Shown here: piece after piece, positions 17,716 through 30,505 of the stretch
Position numbering within the stretch: position 1 is the stretch's first letter
Layout: every line of letters starts with the position of its first letter
Assembly (NCBI GenBank): GCA_902825865.1
Contig: CADECX010000002.1
Location: forward strand, 1 to 64,000
From: an uncultured Alphaproteobacteria bacterium
GTDB lineage: Bacteria > Pseudomonadota > Alphaproteobacteria > Micropepsales > Micropepsaceae
Direction: 5' to 3'
Length of the DNA: 64,000 bases
Translations under genes and position numbers: made by a program
The notes under the pieces: generated by a model
Seen by the model: the letters and a program-made list of their open reading frames with translations, nothing else
What the model was told of the DNA's origin: nothing
Databases searched by the model: none

Positions 17716-17825
17716 CACAGGTCCGCCTCCCCCTTGCGTGCGTAAGCACGCTCGAGGGGGAGGTGGTTTCAGCGTGCGAAGGCGACCGACGGGAGCCGAG
17801 CGAAAGCTGAAACCGGAGGGGGTAA
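17716..17825 (-). repeat. Dispersed intergenic repeat, family 1 copy B
   Basis: This is the reverse complement of copy A at 12218-12327, with only a handful of mismatches over about 110 bases. It fills the gap between the rlmH stop and the fliX promoter region and can form the same two hairpins. Confidence 0.85.
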
Positions 17826-17826
17826 A

Positions 17827-18309
17827 CTAAGCGCGATGATACGGATGTCCCGCCAGGATGGTGAGAGCACGATAGACTTGCTCGGTGAGCAGCGCGCGCG
17901 CCAAAAGATGCGGCCAGGTCTGGGGGCCGAACGCCAGGCTGCGGCCCGATTTCTTGCCCGGCAAGGGCGCCAAGCCGTCCGGCCCGCCGATCACAAACGC
18001 CATATCCTTGGTGCCGACATCGCGCAGGCTTCCCAGCATTTCGGCGAAATCCTCGGATGTCATGCCTTTGCCGCGCGCGTCCAAGAGCACGATATGGGCG
18101 CCTTCGGGCAGGCGCGCCGACAGGCGCTCGGCCTCGTCCTTCATGCGGGCTTCGGCGCTGCGCTGCTTGGAAACCGGCAATTCCTCCAGCACCACGGCGG
18201 CAATGCCCATATTGCGCCCCAGCTTGCGGGCGCGGTCGCAGAAGTCCTCGCACAGCTGGCCTTCCGGCGTGCCGCGCATATGGCCGATGGCGTAGATCCA
18301 CAATCTCAT
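17827..18309 (-). CDS. rlmH: 23S rRNA pseudouridine-1915 N3-methyltransferase
   Basis: The 160-residue SPOUT-fold methyltransferase starts MRLWIYAIGHMRGTPE. It contains VLLDARGKGMTSEDFAEML, FVIGGPDGL (the SAM-binding knot region) and the diagnostic C-terminal HPYHR. It methylates pseudouridine 1915 in helix 69 of 23S rRNA on assembled 70S ribosomes. It is the last gene of the rplU to rlmH operon, 27 bases after rsfS, the usual pairing. Confidence 0.95.
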   Translation of the reverse strand: MRLWIYAIGHMRGTPEGQLCEDFCDRARKLGRNMGIAAVVLEELPVSKQRSAEARMKDEAERLSARLPEGAHIVLLDARGKGMTSEDFAEMLGSLRDVGTKDMAFVIGGPDGLAPLPGKKSGRSLAFGPQTWPHLLARALLTEQVYRALTILAGHPYHRA

Positions 18310-26247: not shown

Positions 26248-26332
26248 CCCCCTCCGCCCTTCGCAGCGCAAGCGCTGCTACGGGCACCTCCCCCTCCTGT
26301 GCGCTCACGCGCACGAGGGGGAGGCGGGCCTG
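26246..26332 (+). repeat. Dispersed intergenic repeat, family 1 copy C (diverged)
   Basis: It has the same plan as copies A and B: ACCCCCTCCG, a first stem (here CGCAGCG/CGCTGC), CACCTCCCCCT, a GTGCGC/GCGCAC stem and AGGGGGAGGCGGGCCTG. The flanking conserved blocks match copies A and B, while the hairpin insides differ. It ends 3 bases before the alkB start codon, so its right arm supplies the G-rich sequence where a ribosome-binding site should be. Confidence 0.7.
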
Positions 26333-26335
26333 AGT

Positions 26336-26965
26336 ATGCCGCAACGAATTGCGATTGCGCCTGGCGTGTTTCTGTGGCGCGAAAAATTCTCCCCGCTTGA
26401 GCAAAAGAAATTGCACGACGAGGTCATGGCGCGGCTGGAACAGGCGCCGCTCTATCGCCCGGTGATGCCAAACACCGGCAAGGAATTTTCGGTGGAGGAG
26501 AGCAATTTCGGGACTTTGGGTTGGGTCTCGGACAAAAGCGGCTATCGCTATCAACCAGCCCATCCGGTGACGGGGATGCCTTGGCCCGCCATCCCCCAGC
26601 CGCTGCTGGATCTGTGGGCAGAGATCAATGGCGGGCGCGCGCCGGAATGCTGCCTGGTCAATGTCTACCGCGCCGGCGCCAAGATGGGGCTGCACCAGGA
26701 CCGTGACGAGAAGGACACAAGCGCGGCGGTGATCGGGGTGTCGCTGGGCGATGAGGCGCTGTTCCGGATCGGAGGCACCAGCCGTGCGGGGCGGACCGTC
26801 AGTGTGTCCTTGGCCTCGGGCGATGTGATTGCCTTTGGCGGGACAGCGCGGCTGGCCTATCACGGCATCGACCGGATCAGGCCGGGGACCTCCCGCTTGC
26901 TGCCGGGCGGTGGGCGGCTCAGCCTGACCTTACGGCGGGTTTCAAAGGCGACCGGCGGCGCCTAG
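26336..26965 (+). CDS. alkB: AlkB-type 2-oxoglutarate/Fe(II) DNA repair dioxygenase
   Basis: The 209-residue protein has YRAGAKMGLHQDRDE (metal ligands His120 and Asp122), YHGIDR (His176) and GGRLSLTLR (Arg194 and Arg200, for 2-oxoglutarate and substrate). CCLVNVY and GTLGWVSDKSGYRY match the AlkB nucleotide-recognition region. It should reverse N1-methyladenine and N3-methylcytosine damage by oxidative demethylation. The start at 26336 lies 3 bases after repeat copy C; no separate Shine-Dalgarno sequence is visible. Confidence 0.9.
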   Translation: MPQRIAIAPGVFLWREKFSPLEQKKLHDEVMARLEQAPLYRPVMPNTGKEFSVEESNFGTLGWVSDKSGYRYQPAHPVTGMPWPAIPQPLLDLWAEINGGRAPECCLVNVYRAGAKMGLHQDRDEKDTSAAVIGVSLGDEALFRIGGTSRAGRTVSVSLASGDVIAFGGTARLAYHGIDRIRPGTSRLLPGGGRLSLTLRRVSKATGGA

Positions 26966-27059: not shown

Positions 27060-27084
27060 AAAAAAAAGCCCCCCGGCGGGGGGC
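27060..27084 (-). terminator. Strong intrinsic terminator of the candidate small RNA
   Basis: On the minus strand a GCCCCCC/GGGGGGC stem (27084-27078 with 27074-27068, loop of 3) is followed by eight T residues (27067-27060). It would also end any read-through from the EAL gene upstream. Confidence 0.85.
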
Positions 27085-27205
27085 CGGGGGGCGAAAGCGC
27101 TTTTAGAGCGCAAGGAGCAACCGGGAGGGGATAACCGGCTACCCCAGCGAAGACGGGGGCTGAAAGCGAGCGGGGGGCAGTGCTAGCAGCCCAGGGCCGT
27201 CTTCA
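27060..27205 (-). ncRNA. Candidate small structured RNA with own promoter and terminator
   Basis: On the minus strand a promoter at 27240-27212 predicts a start near 27205, and a strong intrinsic terminator ends transcription near 27060, giving an RNA of about 146 bases. GAAGACGG (27204-27197) pairs perfectly with CCGTCTTC (27156-27149), enclosing a GGGCTG/CAGCCC stem; a GGGGTA/TATCCCC hairpin and a GCGCT/AGCGC hairpin follow before the terminator. No open frame fits it. I could not match it to 6S, SRP, tmRNA or RNase P RNA. It is inferred from signals only. It fills most of a 427-base gene-free gap. Confidence 0.5.
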
Positions 27206-27211
27206 CCTTAT

Positions 27212-27240
27212 AAAATAGGCAAAGATGCAACAGGTTTCAA
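27212..27240 (-). promoter_or_regulatory. Sigma-70-like promoter for the candidate small RNA
   Basis: TTGAAA (27240-27235), a 17-base spacer and TATTTT (27217-27212) on the minus strand, in a locally AT-rich stretch (about 27205-27310) that stands out from the GC-rich surroundings. Confidence 0.6.
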
Positions 27241-27392
27241 GAAAATTTGTTGGAATGAAAGAATTATAATGACAGTGATATTTCTGTCAGCCTTATTTTG
27301 GCCAAATCAAGGGGGTTAGGCGGGGCTTTGCTTACTCGCCCAACACGCCCGGAACCTCAAATTTCCGGCATTTTTGGCTGCGGGAACCGCGA

Positions 27393-28973
27393 TCAGCCCC
27401 AACTTTCACTGACACCTTTACGCCGCGCCACGGCGACGGGAGCAGCTGGCAACTGCGCCAACGGCGCCCCCAGCCATTTGCCCTGGCCATGCTGAAAGCC
27501 CAACGCGCGGGCGGCATGGGCCATGGCTTCACTCTCGATCCATTCGGCGATGGTGGTCACGCCCATCTCGCCGCACAGTTTCGCCAGACCGGCGAGCAGC
27601 GCATCGTCGCGCTTGGAGCTGCCGATTTTCTTGATCATGGCGCCATCGAATTTCACGAAATCCACCTGGAAGGCGTGCAAGTAATTTATTGATGCCGCGC
27701 CTGCGCCGAAATCGTCCAGCCCGACGCGATAACCCAGGGCGCGAAGCGCCGCGATCGCCTTGCCGGCATTTTCCAGATCGGCGATGGCGGCGGTTTCAGT
27801 GATCTCGATCAGGGTGCGCGGCGCCAGCTTGCGGCGCTTGGCGAGAATCCCGGCCAGCATCCCGAAGCTGGAGGGCGAGGCGATGGTCGCGCCGGAGACA
27901 TTGAAGGCGATATGGACGCTGGATTGGTCTTCAATGATATCCAGGACCTTGCTGGCCACCGCCAGGTCGAAGGCGTTGGCGATGCCCAAAGCTTCGATGA
28001 ACTTGACGGTTTCCTGCGTGCCTTCCGGATTGGAGAAGCGCGCCAGGGCTTCATAGTGCGAGACCTTTCCGCTGCCCAGATCGCTGATCGGCTGATAGGC
28101 GATCTCAAACGCGCCCTCGCCCACGGTCTTGGTCATCGCGGCCAGCCTCTGCTCGGTCGCCGCCATCATGCCCGCGAAGATGCCGGCAATATCGCCGTCC
28201 CGGTCATCGACCTTGCCCTTCCCGGCAAACTGCTCGATCACATAGCGCATCGCCAACAGACGCTGCTCGGGACTTAAGCCGCCGCCTTTGAGGCCAATGC
28301 TGGTCTCCGCCACTTTGAGCGGTGTCAGCCCGCCGGCGGAAAACGCCTCGGCGACCTTTTTCGCGATATCCAGCGAACCTTTGGTGGCGGGCGCCAAGGC
28401 GCCGAAAATGGATTCGGAAATGCGCCCCGACGCGCTGGCGCCGGAGTTCTGAATACTGTCTCCGATACGCTGCAACAGCGCGTCGGCGCCTTCCTTGGGA
28501 AGCTGGGCGCAGAGTTCCGGCAACCCCTGCACATGCAGCAGGGTGAGTGTGTCGCGTTCGCCGGCTTTCTCGGCGGCGGCCATGAAGCCTTCGCGCGAGG
28601 CGAGTCCGGTCTTGGGATCGATGGTGGCGCTGGGGGTGCGCGTGCCCGGCCGCGTCAGGGTGCAGGATATGTTGGCGCCATTCTCCGGCAGGCGGAACAT
28701 GGCGAGATTGGCGTCGGCCCCGGTCGCCAAAGTAAGCGTGAAAGGACCGGCGCGATCGCCGCTTTTCAGCGCCTGGGCAAAGGTGGCGAATTTCGCGCCT
28801 TCGGACGGCTTGAACAATCTGGCGGCGGGCCTGCCGATCAGCGCTTCACCGCTTTCATGCACCAGATCGTTGGCCGCGCCGGCGGCAAATAGAATTTTGC
28901 CTTCCTTGTCGGTCTCAAACAGGAAGTCGGCATTGGTGAAGGCAAAGCCAAGCAGGCGGACGGGCAAAGACAT
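27393..28973 (-). CDS. PAS plus EAL domain cyclic di-GMP phosphodiesterase-like protein
   Basis: The 526-residue protein starts with a PAS-like segment (FTNADFLFETDKEGKILFAAG), has a middle region resembling a degenerate GGDEF domain without its motif, and ends in an EAL domain. EAL features: YEALARF (the EAL motif), FNVSG, IEITETAAI, GLDDFGAG, VKFDG, TIAEWIES and QGKWLG. The metal- and substrate-binding Glu, Asn, Asp, Lys and Gln positions appear present, so it may be active, though AEWIE replaces the usual AEGVE. The ATG at 28973 is preferred to a GTG at 29006. It is cytosolic. Confidence 0.85.
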   Translation of the reverse strand: MSLPVRLLGFAFTNADFLFETDKEGKILFAAGAANDLVHESGEALIGRPAARLFKPSEGAKFATFAQALKSGDRAGPFTLTLATGADANLAMFRLPENGANISCTLTRPGTRTPSATIDPKTGLASREGFMAAAEKAGERDTLTLLHVQGLPELCAQLPKEGADALLQRIGDSIQNSGASASGRISESIFGALAPATKGSLDIAKKVAEAFSAGGLTPLKVAETSIGLKGGGLSPEQRLLAMRYVIEQFAGKGKVDDRDGDIAGIFAGMMAATEQRLAAMTKTVGEGAFEIAYQPISDLGSGKVSHYEALARFSNPEGTQETVKFIEALGIANAFDLAVASKVLDIIEDQSSVHIAFNVSGATIASPSSFGMLAGILAKRRKLAPRTLIEITETAAIADLENAGKAIAALRALGYRVGLDDFGAGAASINYLHAFQVDFVKFDGAMIKKIGSSKRDDALLAGLAKLCGEMGVTTIAEWIESEAMAHAARALGFQHGQGKWLGAPLAQLPAAPVAVARRKGVSESWG

Positions 28974-29028
28974 GAAAGACCGGATCTGAAACAGGCGGCC
29001 CGGCACTGTGTCAGCAATATCTTAGGAT

Positions 29029-29050
29029 GCTGTAAACGGATGTTTACAGC
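29029..29050. repeat. Perfect 9-bp palindrome between the amidotransferase and EAL genes
   Basis: GCTGTAAAC (29029-29037) pairs with GTTTACAGC (29042-29050) around GGAT. It includes the stop codon of the amidotransferase gene and lies 56 bases before the EAL start. It is a possible operator for the EAL gene or a 3' stem-loop. Confidence 0.6.
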
Positions 29051-29763
29051 TGTGTCCCGAAGGCTTGGAATATGGCGCGGCTCAGCGCGTCTGCGGCAAA
29101 GCGCCATTCCGGATGCCATTGTACGCCCAAAAGAAAGCCCGGCGCGCTCGCGTGCGATACGGCTTCAATCTGCCCGTCCGGCGCATGCGCCTCTGCTTTC
29201 AGACCGGGCGCCAGCCGGTCGATGCCTTGATGATGCAGCGAATTGACTTTTGCCTCGCTCTGACCCGACAGCCGCGCCAACAACCCGCCCGGCACAATCG
29301 TTATGGAATGTGCCGGCGCATACTCCTCATCGCGCGCGCGCCCCGATGGCTCGCGATGATCCAGCCGGCCGGGAATTTCATGGACGTGCTGATGAAGGCT
29401 GCCGCCCAACGCAACATTGAGTTCCTGAAAGCCGCGGCAGATCGCCAGCAGCGGCTTGCCGCTTTGGACGGCGGCGCGCAGCAAAGGCAGGCTGGTGGCG
29501 TCACGTATCTCATCCAGCTCGGTGCCGGGCCGCGCAGTTTGGCCGTAATGGGTGGGCGCGACATTGGACGGCGCGCCGGTGAACAGCAGTCCGTCGACTT
29601 GCGCCAACACGCCTGCGGCATCCAGCGGACGATCTGTTGACGGAATCAGCAGCGGAAAAGCCCCGGCGCCATCCCGGATCGCTTCGATATATTCGTCATT
29701 GGCCTGATGCACCGCCATGCCGTCAAAGACGCGGCGGTCGCTGATGATCCCCACCCGCTTCAC
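29044..29763 (-). CDS. Class I glutamine amidotransferase-like (peptidase C26/PuuD-type) hydrolase
   Basis: The 239-residue protein has the nucleophile elbow LLAICRGFQELNVALGG (Cys109) and the His-Glu pair in VQWHPEWR near the C-terminus, as in gamma-glutamyl-GABA hydrolases. LFTGAPSNVAPTHYG is the usual substrate-side motif. It likely cleaves gamma-glutamyl amides; the true substrate is unknown and no other put genes are nearby. The GTG start at 29763 overlaps the lolA stop by one base (TAGTG), so it is probably coupled to lolA. Confidence 0.87.
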   Translation of the reverse strand: MKRVGIISDRRVFDGMAVHQANDEYIEAIRDGAGAFPLLIPSTDRPLDAAGVLAQVDGLLFTGAPSNVAPTHYGQTARPGTELDEIRDATSLPLLRAAVQSGKPLLAICRGFQELNVALGGSLHQHVHEIPGRLDHREPSGRARDEEYAPAHSITIVPGGLLARLSGQSEAKVNSLHHQGIDRLAPGLKAEAHAPDGQIEAVSHASAPGFLLGVQWHPEWRFAADALSRAIFQAFGTQL

Positions 29764-30404
29764 TATTTGCGGGCCTGCTTGATCGGCTTGGCCGGCGCGG
29801 TGAACTGCGCGGTGTCGAGCTTGGCGTTGGGCTGCACATTCTGCAGCGCCACGGTGGTGTTGCCGCCCTGATCGTCGCGCACCGTCCATTGCCGCAGCTC
29901 GATGCCGGGCGTGGCGAAGACCAGGGTGATATTGGAATCGTTGCGATTGGCGCTGGTGCGGGCGCGCACGACAATGGCGCCATTCTGTTCGCTGACCCCG
30001 ATCACCGCCTTGTTGGTCTTGAGATCGACGCGCGCATTGAGCAACAGGCCCAGCGGGGTATCCGACAGGTCATACTGATCGCGGGTATTGAGACGCGAAT
30101 TCTTCACATAGACGCTGCCGCCGGTGGCCACGATCAGGATCGGGCTTGGCGGGCGGTATTCAAAACGAATCTGGCCCGGCTTCTGGATGCTGACTTCACC
30201 TTGATCCATGCCGCCTTCCGGGCCGACCTGAATGAAACTGGCCTTGAGGCTTTGAAAGCCGTTGAGATAGGCGCTGACCTTGTCCAGGTCGGCGCGCTGC
30301 TGATCGCTATAGGCCTGGTACAGGCGCTGCGGCACAGGCTGGCCCGCGCCGCCCAGAAGAGCGATCGAGAGGGTGGCAGCAAGGCAAAGGCAAAAGCGGC
30401 GCAT
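29763..30404 (-). CDS. lolA: Outer-membrane lipoprotein carrier protein LolA
   Basis: The 213-residue periplasmic protein has a signal peptide (MRRFCLCLAATLSIALLGGAGQ), then DLDKVSAYLNGFQSLKASFIQVGPEG, GQIRFEYRPPSPILIV and DTPLGLLLN, all LolA landmarks. It ferries lipoproteins from LolCDE to the outer membrane. The start at 30404 is chosen because it yields the signal peptide; the frame extends upstream to 30494 without family features. It is divergent from gpsA. Confidence 0.85.
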   Translation of the reverse strand: MRRFCLCLAATLSIALLGGAGQPVPQRLYQAYSDQQRADLDKVSAYLNGFQSLKASFIQVGPEGGMDQGEVSIQKPGQIRFEYRPPSPILIVATGGSVYVKNSRLNTRDQYDLSDTPLGLLLNARVDLKTNKAVIGVSEQNGAIVVRARTSANRNDSNITLVFATPGIELRQWTVRDDQGGNTTVALQNVQPNAKLDTAQFTAPAKPIKQARK

Positions 30405-30505
30405 CAGCAAGCCTCGCACGGCAGTATGGAGAAATTCAGGCGGCAATTTGCGATCAACAAGGCGGCACGATAGATTTCGGCCCCGAATAAGCAACTAACG
30501 ATTTG

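Follow-up and report, generated by a model that had tools for sequence, protein, structure and literature searches.

A conserved small RNA at the lolA locus of an uncultured alphaproteobacterium as a likely orthologue of RusT

We asked whether the interval between an alkB-like gene and an EAL-domain gene in an uncultured alphaproteobacterium (Micropepsaceae) encodes a free-standing small RNA (sRNA) and, if so, to which family that RNA belongs. The interval lies in a window of 64,000 nucleotides, the whole stretch of DNA that was analysed. A sequence-only reading had proposed a free-standing sRNA there, "after alkB", with its own promoter and terminator. The proposal is upheld as far as sequence can test it, and the RNA does follow alkB on the map, but alkB lies on the opposite strand and is convergent. 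The features of the locus are as follows.

29763..30494, minus strand: lolA, class-wide anchor gene of the locus (context; PF03548, E = 2.6e-29)
29044..29889, minus strand: class-I amidotransferase gene, peptidase C26 family, second anchor gene (context; PF07722, E = 3.2e-71)
27393..29006, minus strand: EAL-domain gene separating the sRNA from the amidotransferase gene (context; PF00563, E = 3.3e-50)
27270..27289, minus strand: palindrome TGACAG-N8-CTGTCA, a candidate site for a regulator, with 29 bp between it and the -35 box downstream
27212..27240, minus strand: promoter TTGAAA-N17-TATTTT, from sequence, conserved in the genus
27060..27205, minus strand: sRNA of ~146 nt (fold z-score, match to covariance model R1, covariation)
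27149..27204, minus strand: stem-loop 1 (SL1), a two-part helix (fold; upper helix covaries, 5/5 pairs with double changes)
27166..27183, minus strand: loop 1, GCACUGCCCCCCGCUCGC, C-rich and near-invariant (58 sequences, only the number of C varies)
27114..27145, minus strand: stem-loop 2 (SL2; fold; 5/5 tested pairs with double changes)
27124..27132, minus strand: loop 2, AUCCCCUCC, presumed RusT seed (58/58 genus sequences; Caulobacteraceae matches)
27097..27111, minus strand: stem-loop 3 (SL3), GCGC stem (GCGC/GCGC almost invariant)
27060..27092, minus strand: intrinsic terminator (5/9 pairs with double changes, the rest invariant)
26336..26965, plus strand: alkB-like 2OG-Fe(II) oxygenase gene, convergent (context; PF13532, E = 1.4e-50)

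The proposed minus-strand promoter was found with its TTGAAA box at 27240-27235, a 17-nt spacer and its TATTTT box at 27217-27212. On their own, such consensus matches are weak support for an sRNA, and region-wide matching gave 2 promoter-like sites with 0.7 expected. The transcript is predicted to start near 27205 and to end within the T run at 27067-27060. About 146 bases of structured non-coding sequence had been claimed, and the 146-nt RNA indeed has a folding energy of -79.7 kcal/mol compared with -54.9 ± 3.6 in dinucleotide shuffles (z = -6.9; 0/200 shuffles folded as well). Its predicted fold consists of four hairpins, SL1, SL2, SL3 and the terminator. Within the 8-bp 5' stem of SL1 (GAAGACGG/CCGUCUUC, 27204-27197 pairing with 27156-27149) lies a second stem, as described before; the SL2 loop reads UUAUCCCCUC; and the perfect GC stem of the terminator (27092-27068) has 10 G-C pairs and a 5-nt loop and is followed by 8 T (8 U in the RNA). 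The sRNA is single-copy within its own 3.77-Mb genome.

Known RNA families did not account for the locus. Family models for 6S RNA and SRP RNA match elsewhere in the genome and none matches here, in line with the earlier judgement that this is not a housekeeping RNA, and a covariance-model scan against Rfam returned no family at gathering score for the locus. The SL2-to-terminator part resembles RF02837 (anti-hemB, 29.3 bits) and RF00519 (suhB/mmgR, 20.9 bits) in its C-rich loop and terminator, at scores under the gathering thresholds of 49.5 and 41, respectively. ChvR was set aside as a distinct sRNA of 84 nt that adjoins recF and has a proposed ChvI motif, TTGC-N3-GCAA.

We then turned to relatives. 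By blastn, the sRNA was present in 23/59 of the same-genus relatives first searched. Scanning 84,980 species genomes for the motif gave 63 loci. We judged 59 to be real, nearly all of them having the promoter, the terminator and both loops, and took the other four (L051, L074, L079 and L081) as chance matches; the scan loci include Rhizomicrobium electricum DSM 21034, with its orthologue at L067:1049-1195, and many genomes titled as uncultured Alphaproteobacteria. A covariance model trained on the window's genus only (R1) matched the window at 27064-27207 with 105.7 bits and found the sRNA in 67/69 genus genomes, at one copy each save for one weak second match. This second match (G002:C2:276899-277040, 28.2 bits) is possibly a diverged paralogue or possibly chance.

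The sequence-only reading had staked itself on the stems being kept in close relatives, and they covary. In an alignment made from sequence alone, 96.5% of cells were paired and 15/25 pairs changed on both sides; doubly changed cells numbered 182, compared with 47.6 ± 8.4 after shuffling and 38 at most once partners were slid. Covariation is seen in the upper part of SL1, in SL2 and in the terminator. SL3 is almost constant, and conservation is its only support. Across 58 distinct sequences the loops are near-invariant while the stems change, reading CUGCCCCC(C/CC)GCUYGC and AUCCCCUCC (as DNA, CTGCCCCC(C/CC)GCTYGC and ATCCCCTCC), and many members have a C-rich terminator loop. Because the predicted sRNA is conserved in 67/69 genus genomes, its stems covary and its promoter is conserved, we regard doubt about its reality as removed and its existence as confirmed by conservation.

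The same-strand genes upstream of the sRNA, lolA, the C26 amidotransferase gene and the EAL gene, place the window in a class-wide series. Searching 385 alphaproteobacterial genomes with R1 gave matches at E ≤ 0.01 in 69, five of them from the genus itself. We fetched 47 non-genus matches (45 with E ≤ 0.00104, two at ~0.006) and assigned their neighbours by comparison with the proteins of these loci: 40 adjoin lolA, the C26 amidotransferase gene, ftsK or xthA on the same strand, and these 40 span 21 families besides the genus's own. The typical order is ftsK-lolA-(amidotransferase)-RNA-(unknown gene)-xthA. Most of the weak matches (27-40 bits) sit where the strong ones do, which would not be expected of chance matches. 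At its cut-off, Rfam gave no family for the 20 class loci scanned. In the genus, a convergent alkB or phosphatase-like gene occupies the place of xthA, which is not the downstream neighbour, and the EAL gene is a frequent insertion found in some genus members; the EAL protein, searched against the genome contigs, gave no match.

Two further observations concern these loci. Many alphaproteobacterial families carry a gene of ~200 amino acids between the sRNA and xthA (L125 from ~1801, cluster c2, and 15 other loci), for which there was no Pfam match. There is also a shorter-RNA sub-type (L138, L148, L150, L151, L154, L157, L160, L161, L164, L166 and L168), adjoining the amidotransferase gene or lolA, in which a GCUCC...GGAGC hairpin replaces SL3 and the terminator loop often holds CCCCCC.

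R1 also matched two genomes of a family that we take to be Caulobacteraceae from CtrA identity of 87-91%; both matches lie in the lolA-xthA gap (L155, 31.7 bits; L165, 28.1 bits). A wider model, R2, contains both of these loci, and only the R1 matches are independent; R2 gave matches in 47/80 Caulobacteraceae. Of the 34 R2 matches inspected, 29 are at the locus, two of them beside xthA alone and the others in the lolA-xthA gap, and the off-locus matches L193, L197, L200, L203 and L206 were taken as chance. All 29 locus matches carry a UCCCC(C/U) loop, with the exact 9-mer AUCCCCUCC in 18/29.

In Caulobacter crescentus, the sRNA between lolA and xth is RusT (CCNA_R0199), a 118-nt, iron-responsive, Hfq-dependent RNA of four stem-loops (PMC11005374). 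Its conserved SL2 segment spans nt 45-57, C53 contributes to pairing with receptor and ompW mRNAs, and Hfq contacts SL3 at nt 72-87; NtrX represses RusT, iron chelation or zinc induces it, and its authors reported homologues in Caulobacteraceae only (PMC11005374). When we counted from the likely start in L194-L196, nt 53 was the first C of AUCCCCUCC and nt 72-87 were GAGAGACCUGACUUUC. This numbering agrees with the published C53 and Hfq site, an argument that is strong but indirect, C. crescentus RusT being known here by description, and RusT C53 appears to fall on the first C of the SL2 loop.

Like RusT, the window sRNA lies on the same strand at the lolA locus (RusT between lolA and xthA), has its own promoter and four stem-loops, the last a terminator, and carries a conserved C-containing SL2 loop, which is RusT's pairing site, with SL3 between SL2 and the terminator. 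Unlike RusT, it measures 146 nt rather than 118, its SL1 is far longer and two-part with a near-invariant loop of its own, CUGCCCCCCGCUCGC, its SL3 is a GCGC hairpin, and at its locus amidotransferase and EAL genes follow lolA whereas an alkB or phosphatase-like gene replaces xthA. SL3 occupies the position of RusT's Hfq-contacted stem-loop and, only by analogy with that RNA (PMC11005374), may serve in Hfq binding.

We assign the RNA to the RusT family because the locus and the SL2 loop are the same, the C53 and Hfq numbering fits, and the genus-trained R1 reaches Caulobacteraceae. Orthology with RusT is likely, and with good confidence we read the locus as the local RusT orthologue, an independently transcribed, Rho-independently terminated, trans-acting sRNA. 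Against this identity stand the modest R1 scores in Caulobacteraceae (28-32 bits), the far longer SL1, the frequent insertion of EAL, the absence of xthA as downstream neighbour and target predictions in which receptors were not obviously enriched. Membership in a class-wide lolA-xthA family that includes Caulobacter RusT, which was invisible to the earlier reader, is supported; we read it as a genus-specific two-loop variant of that family, whose long first hairpin carries an additional C-rich loop.

The resemblance could instead be convergent, the RNA being an unrelated, lineage-specific sRNA that has no more in common with RusT than its C-rich loops and its place near lolA and xthA. Similarity to the Caulobacteraceae matches is indeed limited to the SL2 loop, the layout and the terminator, and anti-ribosome-binding loops rich in C have evolved on several occasions, SmelA075 being one case (PMC3927594). 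The SmelA075/SmelA099-type sRNAs of Rhizobiales also have several hairpins, diverging stems and anti-Shine-Dalgarno-like C-rich loops, but the loop sequence, CCUCCUCCC, is different (PMC3927594). What makes convergence improbable to us is that strand, place, four-hairpin order and loop are all shared across intermediate families and that a model trained on the genus still detects the lolA-xthA locus.

The promoter bears on two other explanations. Across the genus its consensus is TTG(A/C)AA-NN-TGT...TGCATA(G/T). In a general-stress sRNA of the GsrN type, transcribed under EcfG, the C-rich loop would bind G-rich mRNA leaders and stabilise or activate them; in Caulobacter crescentus GsrN, an exposed loop with six C binds G-tracts, much like loop 1 here, and both RNAs expose a C-rich loop suited to G-rich mRNA leaders (PMC5869019). 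Unlike for GsrN, neither an EcfG promoter nor a stress-regulator locus was found for the window sRNA: TTG(A/C)AA...TGCATA is no EcfG site, the sole NepR gene is on contig C30 while the sRNA is on C2, and the locus is that of RusT, so that we judge this reading very unlikely. Least credible is that the sequence is simply the 3' untranslated end and terminator of a lolA-amidotransferase-EAL transcript, with no independent RNA: these genes do share its strand, but the promoter and the upstream palindrome are kept whatever gene precedes, and the most conserved part is the loops, distant from the terminator.

The palindrome points to how the RusT orthologue might be controlled. Exact TGNCA-N9..11-TGTCA occurs in 29/59 distinct upstream regions, compared with 0.08 expected in shuffles that preserve base composition only, and 44 of the 59 have it when one mismatch is allowed (1.6 expected). 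In most cases, 28-29 or 39-40 bp separate it from the -35 box. The two spacings differ by about one helical turn, which fits a protein acting from one DNA face, and a dimeric regulator at TGNCA-N10-TGTCA probably sets sRNA transcription. NtrX, which regulates rusT in Caulobacter, is a candidate by analogy; the literature searched gave no NtrX binding motif. Genome-wide, the pattern has 7 sites; the centres of the other six are GC-rich and do not resemble that of the conserved site, and we rejected it as a regulon marker. A second promoter-like match (CTGACA-16-TATAAT, 11/12, minus strand 27263-27290) overlaps the palindrome; it could give a longer transcript or could merely reflect the palindrome.

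That the C-rich loops suit G-rich ribosome-binding regions, as had been suggested, also holds at the sequence level. The genome has an hfq gene. By analogy with RusT, and with the help of Hfq, loop AUCCCCUCC would pair with G-rich segments that resemble ribosome-binding sites in the 5' portions of mRNAs. The loop CUGCCCCCCGCUCGC would probably pair likewise; since it is almost as conserved as loop 2, it suggests a second seed. Pairing would mostly lower translation of the target mRNAs, of which those for outer-membrane transporters and porins are the likeliest by analogy with Caulobacter RusT.

An exact search for the seed complement (10-mer) gave 2 sites, the sRNA gene itself and one antisense in a gene. 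We also scanned 1454 predicted starts, covering 44% of the genome, for duplexes. No obvious receptor enrichment was seen, with just three receptor-like genes identified, and copies of a repeat-like intergenic palindrome accounted for two of the three best hits. Such palindromes lie at 26255-26330 and 17720-17830 in the window and at ~10240-10340 in L266, with arms CTCCCCCTCG...CGAGGGGGAGG and AGCTGAAACCGGAGGGGGTA nearby. Were they part of transcribed leaders, the C-rich loops would pair with their G-rich strand, and they may be decoys or false targets.

On balance, we favour a view of RusT as an old alphaproteobacterial sRNA gene at lolA-xthA, whose stems drift while its C-rich loops stay near-fixed, and which in this genus would be a two-seed regulator (AUCCCCUCC and CUGCCCCCCGCUCGC) that is itself governed by a regulator recognising TGNCA-N10-TGTCA at either of two positions separated by one turn of DNA. 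Our matches indicate that the RusT family, previously placed in Caulobacteraceae only, reaches much of Alphaproteobacteria (~22 family-level groups). The covariance model and the anchor genes now allow the family to be annotated, Rfam having no match that reaches its cut-off at the lolA-xthA loci scanned. Two questions become testable: whether iron-responsive regulation of outer-membrane transporters by an sRNA was already present in the ancestor of much of the class, and what keeps a further C-rich loop nearly constant in one genus. If this reach is true, RusT would be among the more widespread regulatory sRNAs of Alphaproteobacteria.
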